Shown: piece after piece, positions 43,480 through 64,000 of the stretch | Layout: each line of letters begins with the position of its first letter | Numbering within the stretch: position 1 is the stretch's first letter | Source: Geodermatophilus sp. YIM 151500 | GTDB taxonomy: Bacteria > Actinomycetota > Actinomycetes > Mycobacteriales > Geodermatophilaceae | NCBI RefSeq assembly: GCF_025716945.1 | Contig: NZ_JAOVZT010000001.1 | Coordinates: 124,001 to 188,000, forward strand | DNA length: 64,000 nucleotides | Direction: 5' to 3' | Notes under the pieces: generated by a model | Database searches by the model: none | The model's input: the letters and a program-made list of their open reading frames with translations, nothing else | Told to the model about the DNA's origin: nothing | Position numbers and translations under genes: made by a program

Positions 43480-44502
43480 TCAGGCGCGTGCGGCGGCCGA
43501 CCCGGCCCGCTCCGCCGGGACGCCCCGGTCCGCCGACGAGTGCAGCACCATGACCGGGCAGGGGGCGTGGACGACGCACAGCAGCGCCACCGAGCCGAGC
43601 AGCAGCCCCGGCAACGTCCCGTGCCCGCGGTTGCCCACGACGAGCAGCGCCGCGTCCGCCGCCTCGTCGACCAGGACCGCGGCCGGGCGGCCCTCCACCG
43701 CCGTGAAGTCGACGCGCGGTCCCGTCTCGCCGCCCTCCCCGAGCAGCCGCTCGCCCAGCACCTCGGCCGCCGCCTCGCGCGCCTGCCGCAGCGCCACGTC
43801 CCGCACCCGGGCCGTCGACTCGGCAGTGGCGGTGCCGAGGTCGGTCCAGTGCTCCGCCGGCTCCAGGACCACCACCACCCGCAGGTCGGTGCCGAGCAGC
43901 GTCGCCTCGTCGACCGCGGCGAGGAGCGCGGACCGGGCCGCCGCCGAGCCGTCGAACCCGATCACGACGGCGCGCCGCCCGCCGGGCAGCACGGCGCGGT
44001 CCGGGTGGACGACGACCACCCGGCCGCGGGAATGCATGACGCAGCGCAGCGACACCGAGCCGAGCACGGCGCCCCGGACGGCCCCCCGCCCGCGGCTGCC
44101 CACGACCAGCACGTCGTCCGGTCCGGCGGCCGCGACGAGGTGGTCTGCCGGTGCGCCACCGACGACGACGACGTCGACCGGGACGACCGGCACGCCGGGC
44201 ACGCCGGCCAGGGCGGGGTCGCCGCGGACCTCGTCGACCAGGGCCCGCGCCTGCGTCGTCGCCAGGTCGCGGACGGCGTCCAGCCGGTGCCGATCGGCCA
44301 GGTAGGCGTCCGTCCAGTAGAAGTCGACGGGGTAGGCGGTGACGACGTCGAGGGGGACGCCGCGGTGGGCGGCCTCCGCCAGCGCCCACACCAGCGCGGC
44401 CCGCGCGCCGTCGGAGGCGTCGACGCCCACGACGACGCGACCGCGCCCGGCCCCGTACGGACGGCCCGCGACTCCGTCGAGCGTCGTGGTCGGCGTGCCC
44501 AT
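43480..44502 (-). CDS. Universal stress protein, two domains
   Basis: A 340-residue tandem USP. Each half carries the ATP-binding pattern G-2X-G-9X-G-S: GSRGRGAVRGAVLGSVSL and GNRGHGTLPGLLLGSVAL. The first half has TAYPVDFYWTDAY, similar to the stress protein at 46499, so they are related copies. GGAGG lies before the ATG. Tandem USPs of this type are abundant in the DosR regulon of mycobacteria. It is divergent from the Acg-like gene and first in an operon with the alcohol dehydrogenase. Confidence 0.92.
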   Translation of the reverse strand: MGTPTTTLDGVAGRPYGAGRGRVVVGVDASDGARAALVWALAEAAHRGVPLDVVTAYPVDFYWTDAYLADRHRLDAVRDLATTQARALVDEVRGDPALAGVPGVPVVPVDVVVVGGAPADHLVAAAGPDDVLVVGSRGRGAVRGAVLGSVSLRCVMHSRGRVVVVHPDRAVLPGGRRAVVIGFDGSAAARSALLAAVDEATLLGTDLRVVVVLEPAEHWTDLGTATAESTARVRDVALRQAREAAAEVLGERLLGEGGETGPRVDFTAVEGRPAAVLVDEAADAALLVVGNRGHGTLPGLLLGSVALLCVVHAPCPVMVLHSSADRGVPAERAGSAAARA

Positions 44503-44728
44503 GATGCGTCCTCCGCCCTCCAGGCCGGCCTGCCGCCGGTACCGGAGCCGAGCCTGCCGGGGGCGATCCCTCTCCGCGGCGGCACGACGTCCCGGGCGCC
44601 CGGGCACTTGGTCACGTCCTGCGCGGCGCAACCGGTGACCTTCGCCCCGCGGACAGGGACCGTCGGCGGGCGCGGCGGCGGGGTCCTCCGGGAGACGCTC
44701 GACCGGACGACCCGTACGAGGAGGACCG

Positions 44729-45850
44729 ATGTCACCGGCCACGTCCCCCGCGCACTCCGACGAGATGCGCACCCATGCCCTCGAGCATTCCATCGACCGG
44801 GCCCTGCTCGCGCCGTCCGTGCACAACACCCAACCGTGGATCGTGGAACTGGCCCGCGACTCGGTCGCCCTGCGGGCGGACCGGAGCCGTCAGCTCACCG
44901 TCATCGACCCGCACGGCCGCGAGTTGCTGATCAGCGGAGGCGCCGCCCTGCTGAACCTGCGCGCGGCGCTGGCCGACCGGAATTGGGCGATACAGGTCGA
45001 CCGGCTGCCCGACCCGGACGACCCGGACCTGCTCGCCGTCGTCCGGCCGGTGGAGGGCTCCGCGGACGGTGAGCTCGCGGTGCTCGCCCCCGCGATCGAC
45101 CGGCGGCGCACCAACCGACGCCGCTTCTGCTCAGATCCCGTGCCGGACGAGGTCGTGGACCGCCTGAGCCGGGTGGCGGCCGCGGAGGACGCCGACCTCG
45201 TGCCCGTGGTGCGCGAGGAGGACCGCCGGCTGGTCGCCCGGCTGACACAGCAGGCCGACGAGGCGCAGAACGCCGATCCGGCCTACCGGGCCGAGATCCG
45301 CCGCTGGACCAACCGCTCCCCGGAGGACCGGGACGGCGTGCAGGCGGCGGCGGTGCCGCACGTCGACGGCAGCGCGCACGACGACCTGCCGCTGCGCGAC
45401 TTCGACAGCGCCGGCGCGGGGATGCTGCCGCCCGACACCCACTCGACGTCCGACCAGACGCTGCTCCTCCTCGCGACCCGCACCGACGACCCGCTCGCCT
45501 GGTTGCGCACCGGCGAGGCGATGGAGCGCCTGCTGCTCGAGCTGACCCGGCTCGACTGGGCCGCCAGCCCCATCACCCAGGCCGTCGAGGTGCCGCTGAC
45601 GCGCTCGCAGCTGCGGTCGGCGCTGACCTGGGGCGCCCACCCGCAGGTGCTGCTCCGCATCGGCCGGGCCGCGGCCACGACACCCAGTCCCCGCCGCCGC
45701 CGCGACGACATGGTGACGGGCAGCACCCGCCCGCCGGAGCCGATGACCCGGCACGTCCGGCCGTCACCGGTGGGCTGGCCCCCGTCGTCCCGGGAGCGGA
45801 ACGAACCCCGGCCCGTCCCGGACGGGCGCGGGGGCACCGTCTGGATCTGA
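44729..45850 (+). CDS. Acg-like nitroreductase-family protein
   Basis: A 373-residue protein of the Acg group (Rv2032/Rv3131 type) in the FMN nitroreductase superfamily. Marks are ALLAPSVHNTQPWIVE, LLISGGAALLNLRAAL, RRTNRRRFCSDPVPDEV and DQTLLLLATRTDDPLAWLRTGEAMERLLLE. Mycobacterial Acg proteins belong to the DosR regulon and are thought to sequester flavin instead of reducing nitro compounds. GAGGAGG lies before the ATG. The last ~50 residues are Arg/Pro-rich and not family-like. It is followed five bases later by the Rv1733c-like gene. Confidence 0.9.
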   Translation: MSPATSPAHSDEMRTHALEHSIDRALLAPSVHNTQPWIVELARDSVALRADRSRQLTVIDPHGRELLISGGAALLNLRAALADRNWAIQVDRLPDPDDPDLLAVVRPVEGSADGELAVLAPAIDRRRTNRRRFCSDPVPDEVVDRLSRVAAAEDADLVPVVREEDRRLVARLTQQADEAQNADPAYRAEIRRWTNRSPEDRDGVQAAAVPHVDGSAHDDLPLRDFDSAGAGMLPPDTHSTSDQTLLLLATRTDDPLAWLRTGEAMERLLLELTRLDWAASPITQAVEVPLTRSQLRSALTWGAHPQVLLRIGRAAATTPSPRRRRDDMVTGSTRPPEPMTRHVRPSPVGWPPSSRERNEPRPVPDGRGGTVWI

Positions 45851-45855
45851 GCGCT

Positions 45856-46446
45856 GTGGACGGCGACCCGCCCGCCGCGGGGTCGGCACGCCGCCGCCCG
45901 GAGTCCGGCGCCCGCGCCTCGAGCCGCAGCACCGACCGCATCCAGCGAGTCTCCCGGGTGATCGCCGTGCTGCTGGCGATGGTGGCCGTCCCTGTCGGGG
46001 TGTCGGCGAGCAGCACCACGGCCGAGCGGCTCACCACGGCGGCCGAGGAGTACCGGGCCGAGCACGAACGGCGCCCCGCCGTCCTGCTCGAGCCTGCCGT
46101 CGGGAAGGTCACCGCCGCCAACGGGTGGGTGCCCGCCACCGCGACGTGGACGGTCGGGTTCGGACCGCCCCGGGAGGGCACCGTGTACGCCCCCGTCGGC
46201 AGCCGGCCCGGCGACACCGTGGAGGTGTGGATGACCCGCTCGGGCGAGCCCGTCGCCCCGCCGCCCCGGCCGCGTGACATCACCGGCCGCGCCGTCGTCC
46301 AGGGCGTCTTCACCGCGCTCGGCGTGATGGCCGCGGCCGTGGTCGCACACCTGCTGGTCTGCCTGCTCCTCGACCGGATCCGCATGCTGCAGTGGGGCGG
46401 CGAGTGGTCGACGGTCGAACCCCGGTGGTCCGACCGCCGCCCCTGA
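45856..46446 (+). CDS. Rv1733c-like membrane protein
   Basis: A 196-residue protein with a basic N-terminus, a membrane helix (~31-52, VIAVLLAMVAVPVGVSAS), a ~100-residue loop outside the membrane (WTVGFGPPREGTVYAPV, VEVWMTRSGE) and a second helix (~150-175). This layout and the wording of the loop match Rv1733c, a DosR-regulon protein of unknown function. It is the second gene of an operon with the Acg homologue. Confidence 0.75.
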   Translation: MDGDPPAAGSARRRPESGARASSRSTDRIQRVSRVIAVLLAMVAVPVGVSASSTTAERLTTAAEEYRAEHERRPAVLLEPAVGKVTAANGWVPATATWTVGFGPPREGTVYAPVGSRPGDTVEVWMTRSGEPVAPPPRPRDITGRAVVQGVFTALGVMAAAVVAHLLVCLLLDRIRMLQWGGEWSTVEPRWSDRRP

Positions 46447-46498
46447 CGACTCCCGACCGACGGTCGCGTCCCTTCCCCCACGCCGGCCGTCCGTCGGG

Positions 46499-47047
46499 TC
46501 ACACGCTGGCCGTCACCGCCCCGCCGGACCGGGCCGCCTCCGCCGCTCGCAGGCCCGCGTGCACGGTGAGCACCGGGCACGGCGCGTGCATCACGCAGTT
46601 CAGCGCCACCGACCCGAGGGCGGCGCTGCGCAGGGCACCGCGGCCGCGGCTGCCGACCACCAGCAGATCGGCCCCCTCGGCGCGGTCGAGGAGGGCCTGC
46701 ACCGCCGGGCCGGCGGTGACGACGACGTCCACCCGCGGCCCGCTGCGACCGTCGCCGGGGACCTCCCGGACGACCCCGTCAACGAGCCGCCGGGTCCGTT
46801 CCTCGGTCAGGGCGCGCAGCTGGTCGACCGGGGGGTTGACGACCGGGTAGACGCCCATCCAGTACAGCTGGACGTCGTAGGCGGCGACCACCTCCAGATC
46901 CGCTCCGCGCGAGTGCGCGGTCCGCAGGGCGTGGGCCAGGGCCGCACGCGAGCCGGCGGATCCGTCCACGCCGACCACGATCCTGGGTCGCCGGCTCCCG
47001 GTCGCGGGTTCCCGCCGGCCGCCCTGCGGTTCGTCCCCGACGGCCAT
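46499..47047 (-). CDS. Universal stress protein
   Basis: A 182-residue single-domain USP with the ATP pattern GSRGRGALRSAALGSVAL and the loop VAAYDVQLYWMGVYPVVNPP. It is close in that loop to the first half of the protein at 43480. A perfect DosR-type core palindrome stands 100 bp before the start. GGAGGAGG precedes the ATG. Function: nucleotide-binding stress regulator, probably in hypoxia or stationary phase. Confidence 0.9.
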   Translation of the reverse strand: MAVGDEPQGGRREPATGSRRPRIVVGVDGSAGSRAALAHALRTAHSRGADLEVVAAYDVQLYWMGVYPVVNPPVDQLRALTEERTRRLVDGVVREVPGDGRSGPRVDVVVTAGPAVQALLDRAEGADLLVVGSRGRGALRSAALGSVALNCVMHAPCPVLTVHAGLRAAEAARSGGAVTASV

Positions 47048-47146
47048 GGCGCCTCCTCCTCCGTGCGCCGCTCCGGTGGCGGCACCTGCACCCGAGCCTG
47101 GCGGCCGTCGCGCCCCGCCGTCACCGGCCGAGCGGCTCCCTCGGGG

Positions 47147-47160
47147 GGGACGGAGGTCCC
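47147..47160. promoter_or_regulatory. DosR-type box GGGAC-N4-GTCCC
   Basis: GGGACGGAGGTCCC is a perfect match to the DosR core GGGAC-N4-GTCCC, 100 bp upstream of the universal stress gene that starts at 47047. Confidence 0.75.
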
Positions 47161-47177
47161 GAGCTCGGGCCGGGGTG

Positions 47178-47711
47178 TCAGGTGCGTCGCACCTCTCCCT
47201 GCGGCGGTGTCCTCCCGTGCGGGAGGGCCTCCTGCCGCACCACGGTGACCGGGCAGTGGGCGTGCCGCACGCACTGCTCGCTGACCGAGCCCAGCAGCAA
47301 CCCGGTGAATCCGCCGTGCCCGCGGGCCCCGACCACCATGAGGTCGGCCCGGTGCGATGACTCGATCAGCCCGCGCGCGGCGGCGGCGTGCACCGTCCAG
47401 CACCGCACCTTCACCGTGTCGGGCACGCCCACCGCGGCCACGTGCGCGCACAGCTCGTCGTGGACCGCCCGCTCGAAGTCCTCGATCGGCGGGACGTAGC
47501 CGGGCGCCCAGCTCCGTGGCCGCGGCGCGGAGGTCATCGACCACGCCCGGACCACGTGCAGCCCGAACCCGGCCCGCTCGGCCAGGCGGGCGGCCCAGGC
47601 CAGCGCGACCTGCGCGCCCTCCGAGCCGTCGTGCGCGACGAGGATCCCCCCGTCGACGTCGGCCACCCGGCGCACGTCGGTGTTCCCGGCCGTCCCCGTG
47701 ACGTCGTCCAT
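47178..47711 (-). CDS. Universal stress protein
   Basis: A 177-residue USP with the ATP pattern GARGHGGFTGLLLGSVSE. A stretch RAWSMTSAPRPRSWAPGYVPP is almost the same as in the protein at 53881, marking the two as a recent duplicate pair distinct from the 43480/46499 pair. ATG 47711 follows GGAGGAAGG. The longer upstream frame is not USP-like. A DosR-type box lies 71 bp upstream. Confidence 0.9.
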   Translation of the reverse strand: MDDVTGTAGNTDVRRVADVDGGILVAHDGSEGAQVALAWAARLAERAGFGLHVVRAWSMTSAPRPRSWAPGYVPPIEDFERAVHDELCAHVAAVGVPDTVKVRCWTVHAAAARGLIESSHRADLMVVGARGHGGFTGLLLGSVSEQCVRHAHCPVTVVRQEALPHGRTPPQGEVRRT

Positions 47712-47781
47712 CGGACCTTCCTCCCCCGCCCGGCCCTGCGGGCGCACTCCCGACCCTGCCTCGGGCGAGGTGCGCAGGTCA

Positions 47782-47795
47782 GGGACCATCGGCCC
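47782..47795. promoter_or_regulatory. DosR/OsdR-type box
   Basis: GGGACCATCGGCCC fits the relaxed form GGGnC-N4-GnCCC. It lies between the divergent stress gene (start 47711) and P-type ATPase gene (start 47954), 71 bp from the former. Confidence 0.65.
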
Positions 47796-47904
47796 CGGAT
47801 GGCGGGACCATGGCGCCCGGTTCCCGCGCGCCCGGGCGGTGACGAGCCAGCCGGGCGGGACGGACAGGACGGGCGGGACGGAGGGACGGACGGCCGACCA
47901 GGGT

Positions 47905-47918
47905 GGGCCCATCGGCCC
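47905..47918. promoter_or_regulatory. OsdR-type box before P-type ATPase gene
   Basis: GGGCCCATCGGCCC fits GGGnC-N4-GnCCC and differs at one base from the OsdR consensus GGGCCGATCGGCCC that I recall for Streptomyces coelicolor. It ends 35 bp before the ATPase start. Confidence 0.7.
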
Positions 47919-51743: not shown

Positions 51744-52136
51744 ATGCCGGTCGTGGACGTGCTCTCCAGCCGCGTGCTGCTGCGACCGGTCGACCCGGCG
51801 CGCAGCCGCGCGTTCTACCGGGACGTGCTCGGCCTGGCGGTGCACCGGGAGTTCGGCCCGCCCGACGACCCGGGGTTGGTCTTCTTCGTCGGCAACGGGT
51901 TGCTCGAGGTGTCCGGGCGGGCGGCCGAGCCGCCGCGCGGCCTCGCCCTCTGGCTGCAGGTGCGCGACCTCGCGGCCGAGCACGCGCGGCTGGCGGCCGC
52001 CGGGGTGGACGTGCTCGTCCCGCCGCGCCGGCAGCCGTGGGGGCTGCTCGAGATGGAGGTCGCCGATCCGGACGGCGTCCACCTCGTGCTGGTCGAGGTG
52101 CCGGCGGACCACCCGCTCCGCCGCGACCAGCGCTGA
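51744..52136 (+). CDS. Glyoxalase/VOC-family protein
   Basis: A 130-residue vicinal-oxygen-chelate protein with two betaalphabetabetabeta units: VLLRPVDPARSRAFYRDVLGLAVHREFG and the C-terminal WGLLEMEVADPDGVHLVLVEV. Members include dioxygenases, glyoxalases and resistance proteins; the substrate is unknown. GGGAGAGG is just before the ATG. It lies convergent with the transglycosylase gene. Confidence 0.83.
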   Translation: MPVVDVLSSRVLLRPVDPARSRAFYRDVLGLAVHREFGPPDDPGLVFFVGNGLLEVSGRAAEPPRGLALWLQVRDLAAEHARLAAAGVDVLVPPRRQPWGLLEMEVADPDGVHLVLVEVPADHPLRRDQR

Positions 52137-52164
52137 CCGGCGGGTCGGCGGCCACCGGCGGGGA

Positions 52165-52896
52165 TCAGTACCAGTTCTTCGCCTGCGAGTGCTTCCACGC
52201 GGCGCACGGGCTGCCGTACCGCTCCTCGATGTAGACGAGGCCGGCGTCGATCTGCCGGTAGCCGTCGGAGGTCTTGCCGATGCCCGTCCCGGCCCAGGTG
52301 CTGTCCAGGAACTGCGGGATCCCGTACGCGGAGCTGGTCGGGTTCTGCGCGTCGGGGTTCCAGCCGCTCTCCTTGCCCCACAGGTTCTCCAGGCAGGAGA
52401 ACTGCGCGCCGTCGCCGCCGAGCTCGCCCAGGGCGTACTCCTTGAACGACCCCTTGGTGGCCGGCCTCGCCGCGGCCCGGGCGGCCTCCTCGGCGGCCTT
52501 CCGCGCGGCCTCCTCGGCGGCCGTGCGCGCGGCCTCCTCGGCCGCGCGCCGCTCGAGCTCGAGCCGGTCGGCCTCGGCCTGTGCCGCGGCGGCGGCGTCC
52601 TGCTCGGCGGCCCGCTCGCTGCGGCTGGCGGCCAGCTGCTCCAGCGGCGCCAGCTGCTCCGCGAGGGGCGCGGGCGCGGGCGCCGCGGCGGAGACGCCGA
52701 GCTGCTCGGCGACGCTCACCGGCTCGACGGTGGTCGCCTCGGCGTGGGCCACCGGCTCACCACCGGTGACGACGGCGACCAGCACCGCCCCGGCGCTGGC
52801 GACGCCGAGGTACAGCCCGGGACGCCGGACGGACGCCGGCGGGCGGCGGCGGGACGAGGACGTGCGGGCACTACGACGAGGCGTGCGCGGGCTCAT
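52165..52896 (-). CDS. Secreted lytic transglycosylase (SLT/Rpf-like)
   Basis: A 243-residue exported protein. A basic start and hydrophobic stretch (~27-52) form the signal or anchor. An Ala/Glu-rich coiled coil follows (~90-145), then an SLT-type lysozyme fold (~150-243) with the catalytic Glu176 in WGKESGWNP and AYGIPQFLDSTWAG. It cleaves peptidoglycan and so helps growth, division or resuscitation. It has a 5' leader with a cyclic-di-AMP riboswitch. A GGAGGTG stands just before the ATG. Confidence 0.92.
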   Translation of the reverse strand: MSPRTPRRSARTSSSRRRPPASVRRPGLYLGVASAGAVLVAVVTGGEPVAHAEATTVEPVSVAEQLGVSAAAPAPAPLAEQLAPLEQLAASRSERAAEQDAAAAAQAEADRLELERRAAEEAARTAAEEAARKAAEEAARAAARPATKGSFKEYALGELGGDGAQFSCLENLWGKESGWNPDAQNPTSSAYGIPQFLDSTWAGTGIGKTSDGYRQIDAGLVYIEERYGSPCAAWKHSQAKNWY

Positions 52897-52921
52897 GGAG
52901 GAGGTGCGTCCGATTCTTCCG

Positions 52922-53080
52922 TCGAGCCGCCTACCGGGTTAGCTGACGGGTTCGGGCGGGAAGATGGCCCTACCGGTCCGGCGATCCGGACCCGATTCAC
53001 CCCAGTGCTGCGGTGGGTCCCCGGCTCGCGACGGCGGTCGCGACTCGGCGGCGCCCGGCGGCTCCCCTGGTTGGGGCGGT
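52922..53080 (-). ncRNA. ydaO-type cyclic-di-AMP riboswitch
   Basis: The minus-strand leader contains the conserved ydaO/yuaA blocks in order: GCCGCCGAG, GGGGACCCACCG, GGGGTGAATCGG (52992-53003), CTTCCCGCCCGAACCCG, GTCAGCTAACC (52937-52947) and GTAGGCGG (52927-52934). This RNA binds cyclic-di-AMP and normally turns off cell-wall hydrolase and osmolyte genes, and in actinobacteria it often precedes rpf-like genes. The 3' end is about 25 bases before the transglycosylase ATG. Confidence 0.92.
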
Positions 53081-53103
53081 GACGACCGGCCGGACGGCGA
53101 CAC

Positions 53104-53131
53104 GGTATACACCGTTACCGTCCCGTGACAA
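53104..53131 (-). promoter_or_regulatory. Promoter of riboswitch-transglycosylase transcript
   Basis: On the minus strand TTGTCA (53126-53131) and TATACC (53104-53109) are separated by 16 bases, close to the vegetative -35/-10 form. The start would fall near 53097, about 15-20 bases before the riboswitch. The -10 lies in CGGTATACACCG, an imperfect palindrome that could take a regulator. Confidence 0.6.
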
Positions 53132-53188
53132 TCCGGTGGGCGACATCCGGTGGCGTGACACGCGTTACGGATGGGGCGGCGCGGGAGC

Positions 53189-53836
53189 TCAGGGCACGCG
53201 CCAGACCGTCGTCCGCCGGGTGCCCGGGCCCTCGGTCTCCGGCACGTCGTAGGCACCCACCGCGACCAGCCGGTCCTGCGGCAGGTAGGGCCGGCCGGGG
53301 TCGCCGACCAGCACCTCGCTCCCCCGGGCGCGGGCGGCGGTGAGGAAGGGCCACACCCGCTCGGTCATCCCGCGGTCGTAGCAGACGTCGCCGGCGAGCA
53401 CGACGTCGACGTCCGGCGGCTCGTCGCCCAGGACGTCCCCCACGACGCGGATGGGGCCGGCGCCGTTCAACTCGGCGTTGAGCGCGATCGCCGTGACGCC
53501 GAAGCGGTCGACCTCGCTGGCCACCACCTCGCGCGCACCGGCCGCGGCGGCGGCCACGGCGACCAGCCCGCTGCCCGACCCGAGGTCGAGCACCCGGCGA
53601 TCGGCGACGACGTCCGGCGCGTCGAGCACGTGCCGGGCCAGCGCCTGGCCACCCGGCCAGGCGGCGGCCCAGAACGGCGGTTCCTCCCCGGCTCCGCCGC
53701 CCTCGGCCTCCATCGCCTCCCAGAGCGCGACGACGTCGGCCGCCACGAGCAGCCGGACCTCCGGCACGAGGGAGGGCCGGGCCGGCCGGGTGTGCGACCG
53801 GACGAACCCGGCCGGGGCGGGACGGGGGACGTGCAC
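53189..53836 (-). CDS. Class I SAM-dependent methyltransferase
   Basis: A 215-residue methyltransferase of the METTL20/nicotinamide-N-methyltransferase-like type, with FVRSHTRPARPSLVPEVRL, PPFWAAAWPGGQALARHVLD, the SAM loop VLDLGSGSGLVAVAAAAAGA and DVVLAGDVCYD. Bacterial relatives include lysine methyltransferases acting on ETF-beta or ribosomal protein. The substrate is not known here. Start GTG 53836 is chosen because homology begins shortly after. Confidence 0.85.
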   Translation of the reverse strand: MHVPRPAPAGFVRSHTRPARPSLVPEVRLLVAADVVALWEAMEAEGGGAGEEPPFWAAAWPGGQALARHVLDAPDVVADRRVLDLGSGSGLVAVAAAAAGAREVVASEVDRFGVTAIALNAELNGAGPIRVVGDVLGDEPPDVDVVLAGDVCYDRGMTERVWPFLTAARARGSEVLVGDPGRPYLPQDRLVAVGAYDVPETEGPGTRRTTVWRVP

Positions 53837-53880
53837 CCCACCGAGTCCACCGCGCCGCCCCGGGCGGCGCGAGACGGCCC

Positions 53881-54390
53881 TCAGGATCGACGACCGACGG
53901 GGGCGCCGCCGAGCGAGGCGCCCGTCCCGGTCCGGACGACGGTCACCGGGCACGGCGCGTGGTGCACGCACTGGTCGCTGACCGAGCCGAGGAGCAGCCC
54001 GCCGAAGCCGCCCCGGCCCCGCGCGCCCACGACCAGCAGATCGGCGCCCGCGGCGGCCTCGATCAGCCCGCGGGCGGGCGACCGGTGCACGACGTGGCAG
54101 TGGACGGTCACGCCCGGGTCCAGGCCGGCCGAGGCCACGTGCCGGCGCAGCTCCTCGTGCACGGCCCCGGCCCAGTCGGCCATCGGTGGCACATAACCGG
54201 TCGACCAGCTGCTCGGCCGGGGTGCGCTCGTCATGCTCCACGCGCGCAGCACGTGCACCTCCAGACCGGCCCGGCCGGCCAGCGCGGCCGCCCACCGGAG
54301 CGCGTGCTGGGCGCACTCCGAGCCGTCGTGCCCGACGAGGACCCCGCCGGGGATCGACACCGTCTCGACCGCGCCCTCGACCTCGTCCAC
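53881..54390 (-). CDS. Universal stress protein
   Basis: A 169-residue USP with ATP pattern GARGRGGFGGLLLGSVSD. The RAWSMTSAPRPSSWSTGYVPP stretch makes it a close duplicate of the protein at 47178. GTG 54390 lies behind AGGAAGG. The upstream gap has a GGGCCCGCGCGCCC (54452-54465) one base off the DosR-type form; this may be chance in GC-rich DNA. Confidence 0.9.
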   Translation of the reverse strand: MDEVEGAVETVSIPGGVLVGHDGSECAQHALRWAAALAGRAGLEVHVLRAWSMTSAPRPSSWSTGYVPPMADWAGAVHEELRRHVASAGLDPGVTVHCHVVHRSPARGLIEAAAGADLLVVGARGRGGFGGLLLGSVSDQCVHHAPCPVTVVRTGTGASLGGAPVGRRS

Positions 54391-54520
54391 CCGTGTCCCC
54401 TTCCTCGCTGTCCGCCGTGTCCAGGCTGCACCGTCGCCGTCCGCCCGGGAAGGGCCCGCGCGCCCGGGAGCGGGGCCCCGGGTGCCCGCACCGGCGCGCC
54501 GACGGAACCGGCCGCGCCCG

Positions 54521-55414
54521 TCAGGCGGGCAGCGGCTGGGTGGTCACCGGGTTCCCCAGGTCGGCCACGATGTTGGGCTCGTCGGGCACCAGCTCGTCGA
54601 GCGACCGCAGCGCCTCGGCGATCTGACCGGTCAGCCGGTGCAGGCAGCCGGCGGCCTCCTCCCGCTGGCGGCGCAGGTCGGCCACCTCCGCCTCGAGGGC
54701 GGCGAGCCGGGCCGCGGCGGCCTCCTCGGCGGCTGCGGACGCCGCCCGGGCCTCGGCCTCCAGGCGAGCCATCCGCTCGGCGGTCTCCAGCGCCGCGCGG
54801 GTCCGCTCCTCGGCGGCGGCCACGTCCAGGCGCCGTCGCTCCTCGGCGGCGGCCGCGTCCAGCCGGTGGCGCTCGGCCGCGGCGTCCGCGAGCAGGCGCT
54901 GCGCGTCCTCCCGTGCGTGCCGCAGGGCGTCGGCCGCGGCCGACCGGTCGCGGACGGCTTCCCGGCGCGCCGCCGCGGCGGCGGCGATCAGGTCGCCGAC
55001 GTTGCGGAGCCGGGCCTCGGCCTCGAGCCGGGCACCGGCGACCGTGCGCGCCGCCTCCGCCTCGGCCGCGGCGAGGACCGACCGGACCCCCTGGTCGTAG
55101 GCCGTCCGGTACCGCGCCAGCTCCGCGGCGCAGGTCCGGAAGCGGCGGAGCAGCCGGGTGCGCTCGCGCCGCAGCGCGACCAGCTCCGCCTCCGCCGACT
55201 CCACGTAGGCGTCCACGGCGAGCCGGTCGTAGCCCGGGAAGGTCACCCGGAACTCCGGTCCGGCGCCGAGCAGGGCGGCGAGCTCGGTGGAGTCCGCCCC
55301 CTTCCGCAGGACCGGGTCGGGCGCCGCTCCCGCTCCGTCCGCCGGCCGCTCGCCGGTTCCGTCGTCCTCGCGTCGGACGTCGTCGGTCCCGGCGTCCTCG
55401 GCACGCCCGGTCAT
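54521..55414 (-). CDS. DivIVA-like coiled-coil protein
   Basis: A 297-residue, Ala/Glu/Arg-rich protein. An acidic N-terminal segment (1-50) leads to FPGYDRLAVDAYVESAEAELVALRRE, the GYDR-VD-YV motif of DivIVA/Wag31 proteins. A long coiled coil follows (~70-265) with many AEER and AEAE repeats. Such proteins assemble at curved membranes or act as scaffolds for growth and division. It ends with a short non-helical tail. The link to the stress island is unknown. Confidence 0.75.
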   Translation of the reverse strand: MTGRAEDAGTDDVRREDDGTGERPADGAGAAPDPVLRKGADSTELAALLGAGPEFRVTFPGYDRLAVDAYVESAEAELVALRRERTRLLRRFRTCAAELARYRTAYDQGVRSVLAAAEAEAARTVAGARLEAEARLRNVGDLIAAAAAARREAVRDRSAAADALRHAREDAQRLLADAAAERHRLDAAAAEERRRLDVAAAEERTRAALETAERMARLEAEARAASAAAEEAAAARLAALEAEVADLRRQREEAAGCLHRLTGQIAEALRSLDELVPDEPNIVADLGNPVTTQPLPA

Positions 55415-55580
55415 CGTCCCCCCTCGTCGAGCACGCCGGTGGGCGCCGTCGGTGGCGCGGCCGGTCCTCTTCTCTGCTGGAACGTTCGCATCCCCCCGGG
55501 CCGGCGGCTACACCGGCTCCCCTTCGGTGGTCGACGGAACGGTGTCGTCCGGCTCGGCGCACCCGCAAGGCCACCGTGCG

Positions 55581-57233
55581 TCACGGGCGGGGTGCGGACG
55601 TGCCCTGGACGGCCCGGTGCGGGTGGTCTCGACAGGGGTTCCGTGCCATCCGGTCCGCCTCCGTGTGCGACGTGGAGCTCTGTGGCGGGACGCTGGCAGA
55701 CGGTCGCTCGGGACCCGCGGCTCCCGGCCCGGGCGTGGCGCACGGTCCCGGCGTAGGACCGCGCTCCGTGGTCGCCACGTCACCACCGGTCGACGCGACC
55801 GTGCGGCTGGACGTGTCGGGCACTCCCTGGCGGCCGCCGTGGTCCGCGGCGGACCGCGCCCCGCCGCGCACCGGTGCGTGCACCGCCAGCTCCTCGTCCA
55901 GCGCGTGGGCCAGCACGGAGAGGTCGGGCACCGCGTCGGCGTCGGCGGCCACCGTCATGGTGAGCGTGCCGGCGTAGGAGAGGGCCAGGAAGGAGACGGT
56001 CACGTTGCCGGTCTCGCCGTTGGCGAGCGGGACGACGGCCGACACGGGCGCGCCGGCGAGCGACATCGGCGCGCCCGGTCCCGGGACGTTGCTCAGCAGG
56101 GTGTGGAAGCGGTGCTGGCGGGCCTGGTACCAGCGGTAGCCGCCGAGTGCGGCCATGGCCCGGAACGCGGGACCCAGGAGTGTGATCACCGACGGCCCGG
56201 CCGCGGCGGAGCGGGCGCGCCGGACGGTCCCGGCGACCCGCCGGAGACGCTCGACGGGGTCGGGCACGGCGGGGACGGCCACGACCAGCGGGGTGGCCGC
56301 GTTGCCGGACCCGTCGTCCCCGCCGGCCCGGCTGCCGACCATGACGCACACGAGAAGCGGGTCGACCGGCTCCCCGCGGTGCGCGAGGAGGGTGGACAGG
56401 GCGCCGGCGACCGCGGCGAGGAGGACGTCGTTGACGGTGCCGCCGCACCGGTGCCCCGCTGCCCGCAGCCCGGCCAGGTCGGCCCGGACGACGGCGAACC
56501 GGCGGCGGGGTCCGGTCGGGGCGAGCAGGGAGCAGGAGGCGGCCGGCCGGGGGTGCACGCCGCCGCCGGCACGCAGCGCCCGGCGCAGGGCGGTCCGGGT
56601 GCCGCGGATCCGCTGCACCGCGTGCAGGCGCTCGCGCCAGGCATCGGAGACCAGACGCCCGTACGTGGGCGGCGGCGTGCGCCGGGGTGGTGACGACGGT
56701 CGCTCCGCCGCCGCTGCATCGGCGAGCCGGTGCAGCACGCCCACCCCGCGCAGACCGTCCAGCACGGCGTGGTGGAGGACGACGACCAGCGCGACCCGCT
56801 CGCCGCCCGGCCCGATCAGCCAGGTGGCCGACCACAGCGGCCGGTCCCGCGGCAGCGGCTCGGTGACCAGGTCCGCGGCGAGCGCGAGGAGCGCCTCCTC
56901 GTCCGCGGGATGCGGGCAGACCCTCCGGCGGACGTGCCGGGCCGGATCGACGGCCGGGTCATCGAGCCAGATCGGCTGCCCGCCGCCGAGAGGGACCCGG
57001 ACGATCCGCTGACGCAGCCGCGGCACGGCCGAGATCCGTTCGGCCAGGAGCCGGTCGGCGGTGCCCGGGTCGAGCGGGGGCCCGTCACCGAGGAGGAGCA
57101 GCGCGCCGATCTGCTGTCGCAGCCGGCCGGAGTCCGAGGCCAGCATCGCCAGGTCCGCCTGGCTCACCCGGTCGACCGCCGCGCCGGGGAGCCGGGTCAC
57201 CGGCCGTCGCCCCGGCGAGGGACCGGGCGTCAT
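55581..57233 (-). CDS. WS/DGAT-family acyltransferase
   Basis: A 550-residue wax-ester synthase/diacylglycerol acyltransferase. The active motif is HHAVLDG (His154, His155, Asp159), and NVPGPGAPMSLAGAPVSAVVPLANGETGNVTVSFLALSYAGTL-type motifs lie in the C-terminal half. It makes triacylglycerol or wax esters for storage in non-growing cells; Tgs1 (Rv3130c) of the DosR regulon is the known counterpart. The last ~80 residues are low-complexity and extend past the usual end. It overlaps the small membrane gene upstream (ATGA). Confidence 0.92.
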   Translation of the reverse strand: MTPGPSPGRRPVTRLPGAAVDRVSQADLAMLASDSGRLRQQIGALLLLGDGPPLDPGTADRLLAERISAVPRLRQRIVRVPLGGGQPIWLDDPAVDPARHVRRRVCPHPADEEALLALAADLVTEPLPRDRPLWSATWLIGPGGERVALVVVLHHAVLDGLRGVGVLHRLADAAAAERPSSPPRRTPPPTYGRLVSDAWRERLHAVQRIRGTRTALRRALRAGGGVHPRPAASCSLLAPTGPRRRFAVVRADLAGLRAAGHRCGGTVNDVLLAAVAGALSTLLAHRGEPVDPLLVCVMVGSRAGGDDGSGNAATPLVVAVPAVPDPVERLRRVAGTVRRARSAAAGPSVITLLGPAFRAMAALGGYRWYQARQHRFHTLLSNVPGPGAPMSLAGAPVSAVVPLANGETGNVTVSFLALSYAGTLTMTVAADADAVPDLSVLAHALDEELAVHAPVRGGARSAADHGGRQGVPDTSSRTVASTGGDVATTERGPTPGPCATPGPGAAGPERPSASVPPQSSTSHTEADRMARNPCRDHPHRAVQGTSAPRP

Positions 57234-57565
57234 CGCCGCGGATCCCCCGTCCGCGTCGTCGCGCCCGCGGTGACGGTGCCGCCGGGGCGCCCGGCGCCCG
57301 CGGCGGTCTCCCATGATCGGGGGTGGTGGCCCAGGCGGCCGCGAGTGAGGGCCACGAGAACCGCAGCGGCGGTGAGTAGCACGCCGGCCGATCCCCCGAC
57401 GCCGAGGACGGCGGGCGCCCACAGGGTCCACGAGATGCCGTAGGCGAGGAGCACGAAGGCGGCCAGCGGGTGCCGCGCCACCCACGCGGCACCGCGCGAC
57501 CGGACGCTGGAGGTTGCCGGGCCGTCGGCGGCGTCGGTCATCGGGTCGGTCATCGGGTCGGTCAT
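57230..57565 (-). CDS. Small membrane protein, possible CPBP-protease remnant
   Basis: A 111-residue protein with MTDPMTDPMTD at the start and two hydrophobic helices (~32-52 and ~56-72). The stretch ARHPLAAFVLLAYGISWTLWAPAVLG resembles the first helix of CPBP-family intramembrane proteases, but the catalytic helices are absent, so it may be a remnant or an independent small protein. It is locked between two genes by ATGA overlaps. Three in-frame ATGs come from a 12-bp repeat. Confidence 0.6.
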   Translation of the reverse strand: MTDPMTDPMTDAADGPATSSVRSRGAAWVARHPLAAFVLLAYGISWTLWAPAVLGVGGSAGVLLTAAAVLVALTRGRLGHHPRSWETAAGAGRPGGTVTAGATTRTGDPRR

Positions 57566-57569
57566 CGGG
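57534..57569. repeat. 12-bp triplicate carrying the start codon
   Basis: TCGGTCATCGGG occurs three times in a row; each copy carries one ATG (minus strand) in frame with the small membrane gene, and the first ATG overlaps the stop of the upstream gene. Change of copy number would alter only the N-terminus. Confidence 0.85.
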
Positions 57570-59067
57570 GAGCGCCGGGCGCGGACGTCCTCACCGCCTG
57601 GCCGGCTCCAGCCCTGGGCGGCAGCGGGCTGCCGTGGGCGGGAACGGTGTCGGAGGGCGGTCGCCGGTGGGCACGGTGCACCGCGAGGGCCACCAGCAGC
57701 GCACCGGCGACCAGCAGGACGGCGCCGCCCGCGAGCAGGCCGACGGCCAGCGAGGTCAGCCCCGGCACGGTGGCCGCGGCGCGCGTCTCCACCGCCAGCC
57801 CGGCCCCGCCGTCGGCCCGCATGACGACCGCCGTCCAGGACCCGTCGGCGGGAGCCCAGTCGAGCACCTGGGTGCCGGGACCGGTAGCCGACGCCGTCCA
57901 GATGTCCGCCTCCTCCGGTGGCACCCCGGGCGCGCCGCCCGGAACGTCCGTCGCGTTCGCCCCGCCCTGCGGGTCCCGACCGAGGTCGTGCAGGATGCGG
58001 TGCTCCACGCCGGCCAGGTAGCGGTCGACCGCGGCGCTCCGCGCGATCCCGATGAACAGCTCGGTGGCGGGGTCGGTCGCGGTCGCCTGCAGCCGGGCGT
58101 CACCCAGGAACCGGTCGAGCACCCACTGCTCCCCGCCGGTGTCGAGCCGCATGCTGTCGCTGGCGAGCGCGTACCCGTCGGTGCGCAGCTCGGCCGCGGG
58201 GGTCCACAGGTATCCGTCCACGCGCTGCGTCTGGTCGGCCCGGAGCAGCCCGCCGCCGGCGGCGAGCGGGCCGGTGGCGGCGAGGAGCAGCAGCGAGCCG
58301 ATCACGACGACCGCCACGCGGCCCGCCGTCCAGGTGCTCGGGCGTGCATCGGCCGGCGGCACGGTGGGCGCCGGCCCCCCGGGCACCGACCCGGGGTCCG
58401 CGCCGCCCATGTCCAGCCGGAACGGCGGATACCGGTCGGTCATCAGGCCGGCGTACGCCGCGACCCGCAGCACCCAGCGGTCCATGCCCATGACGAAGTC
58501 GTAGAGCGGCTGCGGGTAGCGGCCGGTGAACAGCAGCACGACGGCGGCGATGAGCACGAGGAGGCCGACCAGGCCCCCCGCCGCCCAGCCCGAGTCCCAG
58601 CCCTGCTCCGCAGCGGGTCCGGTGCTCAGCCACACGCCACCGCCGACGAAGACCGCGAGCACCAGGTAGTGCGGGATGGTCAGCAGCCACCACTTCACCA
58701 GGACGAGCCCGCGGGACAGCCGCTCCGGGTAGGCCACGTCGAGGCCGGCCGGGTAATCGGGGACGTCCGCGAGGGTGAAGGGCGGGTAGCGGTCGGTGCC
58801 CAGGGCACCGTAGCCGTAGTAGTGGACCCGCCAGCTCCAGCGCAGCACCCCGACGTTGAAGTCGAACAGCGCCCTCGGGTAGCGGGCGGTGACGAGGATG
58901 GCGAAGAAGGCGACGACGCCCAGCACGGTGAAGGCCAGCCACAGGAAGGCCAGCACCACGAAGTGCGGGATCAGCAACAGCCACTTCACCAGCCACAGGC
59001 CACGGGAGAGCCCCGCGTCCAGGTGTGCGTCGACGCGCACGGGATAGGGCTCGCGGGCTCGGGTCAC
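57562..59067 (-). CDS. Membrane protein with two DUF4389 domains
   Basis: A 501-residue protein. Two DUF4389 units lie at ~20-100 and ~115-210, each with the family pattern SRGLWLVKWLLLIPHFVVL, RYPRALFDFNVGVLRW and DRYPPF. A further membrane helix follows at ~235-260, then an exported ~150-residue domain (VDGYLWTPAAELRTDGYALASDSMRLD) and a final helix (~455-480). The function is unknown. AGGAG is seven bases before GTG 59067. A DosR-type box lies upstream. Confidence 0.82.
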   Translation of the reverse strand: MTRAREPYPVRVDAHLDAGLSRGLWLVKWLLLIPHFVVLAFLWLAFTVLGVVAFFAILVTARYPRALFDFNVGVLRWSWRVHYYGYGALGTDRYPPFTLADVPDYPAGLDVAYPERLSRGLVLVKWWLLTIPHYLVLAVFVGGGVWLSTGPAAEQGWDSGWAAGGLVGLLVLIAAVVLLFTGRYPQPLYDFVMGMDRWVLRVAAYAGLMTDRYPPFRLDMGGADPGSVPGGPAPTVPPADARPSTWTAGRVAVVVIGSLLLLAATGPLAAGGGLLRADQTQRVDGYLWTPAAELRTDGYALASDSMRLDTGGEQWVLDRFLGDARLQATATDPATELFIGIARSAAVDRYLAGVEHRILHDLGRDPQGGANATDVPGGAPGVPPEEADIWTASATGPGTQVLDWAPADGSWTAVVMRADGGAGLAVETRAAATVPGLTSLAVGLLAGGAVLLVAGALLVALAVHRAHRRPPSDTVPAHGSPLPPRAGAGQAVRTSAPGAPR

Positions 59068-59218
59068 GACGTTCTCCTCGTCCTGTGACGGCCGGACGAC
59101 CCGAGGCTGTCGTGAGGACCCGGCGGTCGACACGGCCCAAGGTCGGACCCGCCCGGGACCTCCGTCGCCGGCGGGACGGCGGACGCGCAGCGGACCAGGC
59201 GGCACCCGGTCGTCCGGT

Positions 59219-59232
59219 AGGACGAACGTCCC
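59219..59232. promoter_or_regulatory. DosR-type box in divergent promoter
   Basis: AGGACGAACGTCCC matches GGGAC-N4-GTCCC at nine of ten core bases. It lies between the DUF4389 operon (start 59067) and the CBS gene (start 59313), about 81 bp from the latter. A weaker GGGACCTCCGTCGC is at 59155-59168. Confidence 0.65.
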
Positions 59233-59312
59233 ACCGGCCAGCGTCCGCCGACCCTGCGCCCGGAGGCGCCCACGGTCCTACGGTCGCCACACGGAGAGCC
59301 GGGGAGGGTGCC

Positions 59313-59989
59313 GTGCAGGCGAGGGACGTCATGACCCGTGCGGTCGTCACGGTGGGGCCGGAGACGTCGGCGAAGTACGCCGCTGAGGTGATGGCCGAGC
59401 ACGGCTTCGCCGCGCTGCCCATCGTCGACGACGAGGACAGGCTGGTCGGCATCGTCGCGGAGGCCGACGTGCTGCGGCGGCGCGTGCCCGAGGATCCGCG
59501 GTTGCACCTGCGCCGCCACACCGGGGCGGGGCCGGTTCCGCCGCTGCGCGTCGGCCGGCTGATGACCACCGACGTCCGCACCGTCGACGCCGCGGCCGAC
59601 GTCGCCGACATCGCCCGGATCCTCGTCGACGGCGGGCTGCGCAGCGCGCCGGTGCTGGAGCACGGCCGGCTGGTCGGCATCGTCAGCCGGCGCGACCTGC
59701 TGACCACCCTGGTGCGCCCCGACGAGCGGCTGCGCGACGAATTGCTCGGGCTGGTCGAGGGCTACACCGGCGAGCCCGGCGCCGTCGACGTGTCGGTGTC
59801 GGAGGGCGTCGCCACCATCCGCCGGCTGCGAGGGGTGGCCGACCCCTCGGCGGAGGCCGAGCAACGCGCGTTCGAGGAGCTCGGCCGCACGGTCGGCGGC
59901 GTGGTCGCAGTGCACGTCGCGGCCGATCCCGGTACAGCGCCGACCGGCACGACCCCGGCCCGGACGACCACGACCTCTGGAGGACGACG

Positions 59990-59993
<4 letters not shown>
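59313..59993 (+). CDS. CBS-domain and BON-domain protein
   Basis: A 226-residue protein with two CBS domains (~1-55, ~75-130; VMTRAVVTVGPETSAKYAAEVMAEHGFAALPIVDDE and LMTTDVRTVDAAADVADIARILVDGGLRSAPVL) and a C-terminal BON domain (~150-210, VDVSVSEGVATIRRLRGVADPSAEAEQRAFEELGRTVGGVVAVHV). CBS pairs bind adenosyl ligands. The layout recalls Hrp1 (Rv2626c) with an added BON. GGGGAGGG precedes GTG 59313. It overlaps the flavodoxin gene (GTGA) and lies downstream of a DosR-type box. Confidence 0.9.
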
Positions 59994-62906
<2,913 letters not shown>

Positions 62907-62952
62907 TCCGCCTCCCTCCCGAAGCGCACGGCTCGCTCGCCCTCGTACCAGC

Positions 62953-63366
62953 GTGCTGCTCGCCGCGACCGACGAAGGCCGCGACGACCACGAGGACGCC
63001 GCCGCATCGCTCGACGCGTGGCCGTCCTCCGGCGTGGTGCTCTACACCAGCGGGCAGATCCTCCGCGAGTACCTGGCCGTGGCCACGCGCCCGGTCGAGC
63101 GCAACGGGCTGGGAATGGCGCGGCCGGCCGCCGTCGCGAACGTCCGAGCGCTTCGCGCGCGCCTGCACCTGTTGGCCGAAGACGAGAGGGTGAGCGAGCG
63201 CCTGCTCGCGCTGCTCGACGCGGTCGAGTGCACGGGCACACGAGTCCGTGACGCGAACGTGGTCGCCACGATGCTCGTCCACGGCGTCGACACCGTCGTC
63301 ACCAGCAACATCGACGATTCCACGAGGTTCGACGACCACGTGCAGGTGGTCACTCCGCGCCGCTAG
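62953..63366 (+). pseudogene. PIN-domain (VapC-type) toxin remnant
   Basis: A 137-residue frame that begins inside a PIN domain: VLLAATDEGRDDHEDA corresponds to residues just after the first catalytic Asp of VapC. In the frame upstream the expected DTSVLL reads RTSVLL, so that Asp is absent. Later acidic residues (LREYLAVATRP, VRDANVVATML, SNIDDSTRF) are kept. No antitoxin gene precedes it; devS ends 46 bp upstream. It is most likely an N-terminally lost toxin. Confidence 0.7.
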
Positions 63367-63389
63367 GGACGGTGCCGAACCTGCGTCGG

Positions 63390-64000
63390 TCAGCGCCGCG
63401 ACGACGGCGGTGCCGATCGAAGTTCGGTGGCGAGCACGGCGGCCTGCGTGCGCCGCTCCAGCCCCAGCTTGGCCAGCAGGTGGGAGACGTAGTTCTTCAC
63501 CGTCTTCTCCGCCAGGAACATGCGCTCGCCGATCTGCCGGTTGGTCAGCCCCTCGCCGATGAGCGCGAGCACCGTGCGCTCCTGGTCGGTCAGCCCCGCG
63601 ACCGGACCGGCCGGTTCGGCGGCCCGCCGCATCCGCTCGAGGACGGCGGTGGTCGCGGTCGGATCGAGCAGCGAACCACCGGCAGCGACGGTGCGGACGG
63701 CGGTGACCAGGTCCTGGCCCAGGATCTGCTTGAGCAGGTAGCCCGATGCACCGGCCATGATCGCCTCGAACAGCGCCTCGTCGTCGCTGTAGCTGGTCAG
63801 CATGATCACCTTCAGCTCGGGCAGGCGGGAGCGCAGCTCGCGGCAGACGCTCACACCGTCGCCGTCGGGAAGGCGGACGTCGAGGATCGCGACGTCGGGA
63901 CGCAGCGCCGGCCCTCGGGCCAGCGCCTCGGCGGCGTTCTTCGCCTCCCCCACCACGGCGAGGGCCGGGTCGCTCTCCAGCACGTCGGCCACGCCGCGCC
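63390..64000 (-). CDS. devR: DevR/DosR-like response regulator (partial)
   Basis: A NarL/FixJ-type regulator whose first ~20 residues lie beyond the window. Visible are the receiver with [12 protein letters not shown] (phospho-Asp), [26 protein letters not shown], and the Lux[62 protein letters not shown], very close to mycobacterial DevR. The apparent GTG start at 63992 is internal. It is convergent with the plus-strand devS and PIN genes, so its promoter lies past the edge. It should bind the GGGnC-N4-GnCCC boxes in this island. Confidence 0.93.

Follow-up and report, generated by a model that had tools for sequence, protein, structure and literature searches.

A predicted c-di-AMP riboswitch and a candidate MtrA-type promoter box ahead of a cell wall hydrolase gene in Geodermatophilus

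In the window (the whole 64 kb stretch of DNA analysed here, from Geodermatophilus sp. YIM 151500), a cell wall hydrolase gene on the minus strand is preceded by a riboswitch of the RF00379 (ydaO-yuaA) class. We consider it probable that this element is a c-di-AMP OFF riboswitch with a ribosome-blocking pseudoknot, and that a response regulator, most likely MtrA, acts at its promoter. The riboswitch belongs to a known class and extends a known regulon by one actinobacterial wall hydrolase; the family-wide pairing of the c-di-AMP riboswitch with an MtrA-type box seems to be unreported in the literature searched. The features concerned are:

43480-47912 and 53881-63992: DosR-like gene set, on both sides of the hydrolase gene
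52165-52896, minus strand: SLT/lysozyme-like wall hydrolase of 243 aa with an N-terminal hydrophobic segment (PF01464, NF052397)
52912-53052, minus strand: c-di-AMP riboswitch aptamer, from P1 to the pseudoknot tail (RF00379 match and reading of ortholog leaders)
52915-52920, minus strand: 3' tail half of the predicted pseudoknot, GGAAGA, near the ribosome-binding site (covariation and sequence)
52926-52931, minus strand: P1 3' strand, GGCGGC (ortholog leaders and sequence reading)
52959-52964, minus strand: P6 loop half of the predicted pseudoknot, UCUUCC, 6 bp with 52920-52915 (covariation)
53026-53043, minus strand: P2 hairpin, UCGCGAC-CGCC-GUCGCGA, a perfect 7-bp stem (sequence and minimum-energy fold)
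53047-53052, minus strand: P1 5' strand, GCCGCC, present in most ortholog leaders, in a register unlike that of the Rfam alignment
53102-53107, minus strand: -10-like element TACCGT (TANNNT); TANNNT follows the box by 5 or 6 nt at 64 of 85 sense family sites
53114-53129, minus strand: candidate MtrA-type box GTCAC-n6-GTAAC, given weight by the family comparison
53126-53131, minus strand: -35-like hexamer TTGTCA; TT precedes the GTNAC half-site at 67 of 85 sense family sites
53189-53848, minus strand: methyltransferase-like gene, start uncertain; a constant neighbour of the hydrolase, with weak methyltransferase matches below cut-offs

A cmscan search with Rfam gathering scores returned a single RF00379 match in the window, at 53046-52912 (minus strand), with 69.3 bits and an E-value of 5.3e-14; the gathering cut-off is 38 bits, and the match spans the model from 1 to 134 of 134. 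The first-pass annotation had proposed the riboswitch and had named this covariance-model comparison in advance, and the score confirms it; its statement that the ydaO blocks are legible on the minus strand also stands, as core letters, P1, P2 and pseudoknot all read as intact. The span it gave, 52922-53131, holds the promoter, the leader and most of the aptamer, and leaves the 3' half of the pseudoknot (52920-52915) just outside. Read by eye, P1 is formed by complementary strands of 6 nt, GCCGCC at 53052-53047 with GGCGGC at 52931-52926, and the P6 stem by GGGC at 52970-52967 with GCCC at 52957-52954 (minus strand). This reading of P1, taken from the ortholog leaders, sets the 5' edge of the aptamer about 6 nt ahead of the edge given by Rfam. 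The Rfam alignment sets P1 inside the P2 loop and needs deletions in P2, a placement we take for a register slip rather than a defect of the RNA. The minimum-energy fold of the leader was no more stable than those of shuffled sequences (z 0.10). The genome encodes a DAC domain of the DisA type (PF02457, 95.8 bits against a cut-off of 27), and the aptamer is predicted to bind c-di-AMP.

The tail GGAAGA lies 19-24 nt upstream of the ATG, within the ribosome-binding stretch or immediately 5' of it; that stretch reads GGAAGAAACGGAG in the leaders of many orthologs. An earlier comparison of loop and tail over 160 unique rows gave a mean of 5.18 pairs against 4.91 for shuffled tails (highest of 300 shuffles, 5.02); because that set included loci found with a DNA pattern that partly fixes the loop, and so was biased, the test was redone on covariance-model matches (135 loci, 7 of them missed by the regular expression). 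Here 103 unique rows gave a mean of 5.44 pairs against 5.03 (highest of 1000 shuffles, 5.21). With 23 representatives of distinct loops the mean was 5.26 consecutive Watson-Crick pairs, against 4.38 with shuffled tails, and none of 1000 shuffles reached that value, the highest being 4.87. Loop and tail covary in the family, for example as UCGCG/CGCGA, CCGAUCG/CGAUCGG and CUUCCAC/GUGGAAG; in three representatives (L006, L018, L030) the longest pairing is instead in or on the P1 strand, and in some it is just 4 bp long.

This pairing of P6 loop and tail suggests that c-di-AMP would block translation. The reading that fits best is a translational OFF switch, because the tail is near the ribosome-binding stretch and no terminator-like site was found in 52000-53400; both the direction and the mechanism are what we infer from this layout. 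Translational control is less clean for the window gene itself, because its Shine-Dalgarno sequence is weak (GGAC, 11 nt 5' of the ATG) and an anti-Shine-Dalgarno-like run, CCUCCUCC, lies between GGAC and ATG at 52897-52904, where CGGAG and a GC-rich spacer stand in the leaders of many orthologs. An anti-P1 platform, in which GGCGGC would pair with a downstream GCCGCC, occurs in some orthologs only and is absent from the window; this candidate was dropped.

The hydrolase open reading frame starts 18 nt past the pseudoknot tail. Its product matches the aggregation-promoting factor C-terminal-like domain clearly (NF052397, 96.4 bits, cut-off 40) and the SLT domain marginally (PF01464, 21.4 bits, cut-off 21.3), which supports the earlier claim of a cell wall hydrolase gene downstream of the riboswitch, with the activity itself predicted; a search of PDB sequences gave no match at E 0.01. 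By eye, three parts can be told apart in the protein: a hydrophobic stretch at the N-terminus, a linker rich in Ala and Glu, and a lysozyme-like domain at the C-terminus. Glu176 in GKESGWNP would be the candidate catalytic residue.

Within the same genome there are five RF00379 places over the cut-off, and all five stand before wall hydrolase genes: one SLT, one M23, two NlpC/P60 (in one of these a PcsB-like coiled coil matches below its cut-off) and one encoding a PF06737 transglycosylase-like protein with LysM, which we take to be of the Rpf type. The class is carried by 110 of 112 Geodermatophilaceae genomes, by 91 of 118 genomes in the class sample and by 22 of 119 in the phylum sample. 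The hydrolase had matches in 107 of the 112 family genomes at 1e-10, its own included, and an aptamer is found upstream of it at 19 of the 20 best loci (again including its own) and at 8 of the next 10. For nine high-scoring family loci (L007-L010, L012, L015, L016, L022, L026), the downstream sequence did not match any of the genome's five hydrolase types.

The leader is preceded by TTGTCACGGGACGGTAACGGTGTATACCGT. A scan for the strict sigma-70 consensus over 52000-53400 reported nothing; the family comparison nonetheless supports TTGTCA and TACCGT, and with them the promoter that the first-pass annotation had placed just upstream of the riboswitch, TATACC at 53109-53104 (minus strand) being an alternative -10-like element. 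The promoter contains a direct repeat of GTnAC half-sites, GTCACGGGACGGTAAC. GTCACn6GTAAC is the window's one exact GTNACn6GTNAC, against 0.66 expected by chance, and because one exact site is about what chance allows, the weight of the box rests on comparison. The sample for this was 135 loci (5 from the genome itself, the 30 best, and 100 further ones from the top of the listed family matches), of which 5 were left out as incomplete or not oriented; 128 leaders remained after removal of duplicates. GTNACn6RTNAC is present in 98 of these 128 c-di-AMP riboswitch leaders, against a mean of 0.68 and a maximum of 3 in dinucleotide shuffles, counts that are not independent since the leaders are related by descent. 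When the leaders were cut differently the box was found in 96 of 127, and for SLT-type leaders the count was 23 of 27 (shuffle mean 0.175). Spacers of 3-5 and 7-9 nt gave 0 to 6 sites in the same 128 leaders, and none of 29 TPP riboswitch leaders of the family has the motif. A slightly wider stretch of the sampled leaders holds 85 sense-oriented sites and 13 on the other strand only.

The box precedes SLT, M23 and RipA-like NlpC genes, and is less frequent among the best-scoring aptamers: 12 of the 30 complete loci among the top-scoring L001-L035 have it (SLT 3/5, M23 7/12, RipA-like NlpC 2/2, short NlpC 0/1, Rpf-type 0/1, no hydrolase type matched 0/9). It is absent from three of the five riboswitch leaders of the genome and from 4 of the 27 SLT-type leaders. 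Leaders from outside the family seldom have it: 2 of 29 in the phylum sample and, with two loci already counted there excluded, 4 of 28 in the class sample. The box is therefore either a trait of this family or takes another form in other groups. A genome-wide count gave 68 occurrences of the strict pattern; reversed, the pattern was found 7 times.

An MtrA ortholog is encoded in the genome, scoring 377 bits with NF040689 (cut-off 300). Binding of MtrA at the candidate box, and the sign of its effect, can be proposed from the site: lying across the -35, the box would permit activation or repression, and we lean towards repression. For S. venezuelae, the part of the source available to us interprets a site at position -34 of mtrA as activating. 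As a separate observation, an MtrA-like OmpR-type regulator with 273.6 bits, below the cut-off of 300, is encoded some 1.4 kb to the left of the window (G000:C11:121944-122600). A further observation concerns a hydrolase paralog in contig C33 (locus L066, G000:C33:359500-363500), upstream of which there is a box, GTCACGACTGCATAAC, and leader-like sequence with no RF00379 match; a gene resembling it in G015 (C23) does have a riboswitch upstream, and the C33 paralog seems to have lost the aptamer and retained the promoter box.

Several other explanations bear on parts of this reading. The box may belong to another OmpR/PhoB-type regulator (it may suit GlnR or PhoP too) or be a mere extended promoter feature, a possibility we take seriously while doubting it. 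NF040689 has 32 matches in the genome, of which one is over the cut-off; the box overlaps the -35 and stands in nearly fixed phase with TANNNT; and a relaxed form of the box was not found in the 500 nt 5' of the mtrA match, which is unhelpful to MtrA. Against this, the two half-sites, the exact 6-nt spacer and the lack of the motif in TPP leaders fit the published MtrA site, described in the accessible portions of the sources as a direct repeat of GTnAC-like half-sites (PMC13189361, PMC6265350, PMC5650626). For the riboswitch, bound c-di-AMP might instead act on transcription, causing early termination without a canonical terminator. An actinobacterial precedent exists in S. coelicolor rpfA, whose transcription is reported to end early (PMC10117811, with discussion in PMC9960051, both as partly available), but the interval 52000-53400 holds no terminator-like site and the 18 nt from tail to ATG leave little room for a separate platform, and we think transcriptional action rather unlikely. 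That the aptamer has decayed or no longer switches is hardly credible: the deletions that the Rfam alignment requires in P2 and the weak Shine-Dalgarno sequence could be read that way, but the core, both stems and the pseudoknot are intact, and the C33 paralog, with its box kept, illustrates what loss may look like.

The first-pass annotation had further set the riboswitch within a dormancy island and taken that position to link regrowth with dormancy. The island is a fair reading, as the window holds a DosR-type set (Usp, Acg-like nitroreductase, Rv1733c family, WS/DGAT, CBS, GAF kinase and LuxR regulator) that flanks the hydrolase on both sides; the link is not supported by gene order in relatives or by a search for palindromes. 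Gene order was read in 19 regions around the 19 best orthologs outside the genome itself, 4 of them shorter than 20 kb (contig ends). The methyltransferase gene was near the hydrolase in all 19, and at 9 of 10 further loci (the exception is a piece of 1,881 bases), whereas nine dormancy-type proteins of the window (P-ATPase, Acg-like nitroreductase, Rv1733c-like, DUF4389, CBS, flavodoxin, GAF kinase, LuxR regulator and ADH) had no match in these regions at 1e-8. In 8 of the 19 regions Usp genes do lie at 4 to 7 kb from the hydrolase, and one region, that of G108, has a WS/DGAT gene about 9 kb off. The DosR-like block of G108 stands together, about 9 to 26 kb from the hydrolase and with no hydrolase match inside; G084 has the block about 210 kb away, and G079 about 390 kb away on the assumption of a circular record. 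The Acg-like protein had matched 9 of 15 genomes, its own included; the block was read in these three relatives, the other five having weaker matches. Because of these distances we see island and hydrolase as units that adjoin here and in G108 and are apart in G084 and G079; the hydrolase is probably a separate unit, with the dormancy genes just neighbours. GGGACn4GTCCC, which we take to be the DosR-type palindrome consensus, was not found with up to one mismatch within 3 kb of the hydrolase, nor anywhere from 48.6 to 59.1 kb, although the site of the host regulator may differ, and the window as a whole has 9 such palindromes against 11.7 by chance. It is therefore very unlikely that the hydrolase is a working part of the island, co-regulated with it for resuscitation, even with MtrA tied to dormancy and resuscitation in M. 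tuberculosis (PMC11215152, in its available part). Three observations on the surroundings may be recorded: two Usp genes have a perfect GGGACn4GTCCC between them, at 47147-47160, in a window whose count is not above chance; a DivIVA-like protein (20.4 bits, cut-off 28) is encoded at 54521-55414 beside a Usp gene; and in 7 of the 19 ortholog regions a match to this DivIVA-like protein and a Usp match occur together near the hydrolase.

For the c-di-AMP OFF switch that we favour, the following course may be proposed. Transcription would start near 53095, as placed from the promoter, and would be set by a response regulator, most likely MtrA and more likely a repressor, on GTCACn6GTAAC across the -35/-10 spacer. 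At high levels of DisA-made c-di-AMP the aptamer would be locked, with P1 and the UCUUCC/GGAAGA pseudoknot stabilised; the pseudoknot would then block ribosome loading and the hydrolase would not be made. A drop in c-di-AMP would free the tail GGAAGA and allow the hydrolase to be made.

The literature searched yielded no paper on a Geodermatophilaceae riboswitch, and in it, as far as the available text of the sources goes, double control by MtrA and a c-di-AMP riboswitch was found only for C. glutamicum nlpC. We suggest, tentatively and with slightly more doubt than confidence, that wall hydrolases of the Geodermatophilaceae are under a fixed two-layer module of MtrA and c-di-AMP, in which the box would govern transcription and the riboswitch pseudoknot translation. 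If so, two envelope or turgor signals must agree before autolysins are made, and the layers could be lost separately (compare the C33 paralog, which has a box and no recognisable aptamer). The family is known from deserts and stone; if MtrA binds, two osmotic or envelope signals would converge on the same enzymes, which would offer a testable model for the restraint of autolysins in drying and rewetting.

Wall hydrolases under ydaO control are described for Streptomyces, with seven in S. coelicolor and six in S. venezuelae in the accessible part of PMC10117811; rpfA of S. coelicolor is an Rpf gene, whereas the window gene encodes a protein of the SLT/AggPromo_Cterm type. For C. glutamicum cg2402 (nlpC), the available text of PMC9960051 describes translational OFF control by c-di-AMP with no canonical terminator and with transcript levels alike, proposes a CUCC/GGAG pseudoknot at the ribosome-binding site, and gives MtrA as a repressor at the same promoter as the riboswitch. 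To the extent of that text, the window resembles nlpC in its proposed OFF switch, the absence of a terminator, the ribosome-site pseudoknot and the MtrA-type promoter site; in contrast to nlpC, an NlpC/P60 peptidase gene at one locus, box and switch recur here family-wide and with at least three hydrolase types. The 108-nt sequence of the ydaO crystal structures 4QLM and 4QLN is printed in RNA-Puzzles III, the available part of which mentions a pseudoknot (PMC5393176), and by our own reading its loop CUCCUUCG can pair with its tail CGAAGGAG at the matching place, although that RNA is an isolated aptamer construct, unlike the gene leader here. In mycobacteria the targets of MtrA include ripA and rpf genes, according to the excerpts available (PMC13189361, PMC6265350, PMC5650626). 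With the MtrA regulon of Mycobacterium, Streptomyces and Corynebacterium, as partly documented in these sources, the candidate box appears to share a direct repeat of GTnAC-like half-sites; unlike in that regulon, it stands here in nearly fixed phase with a -10-like element.
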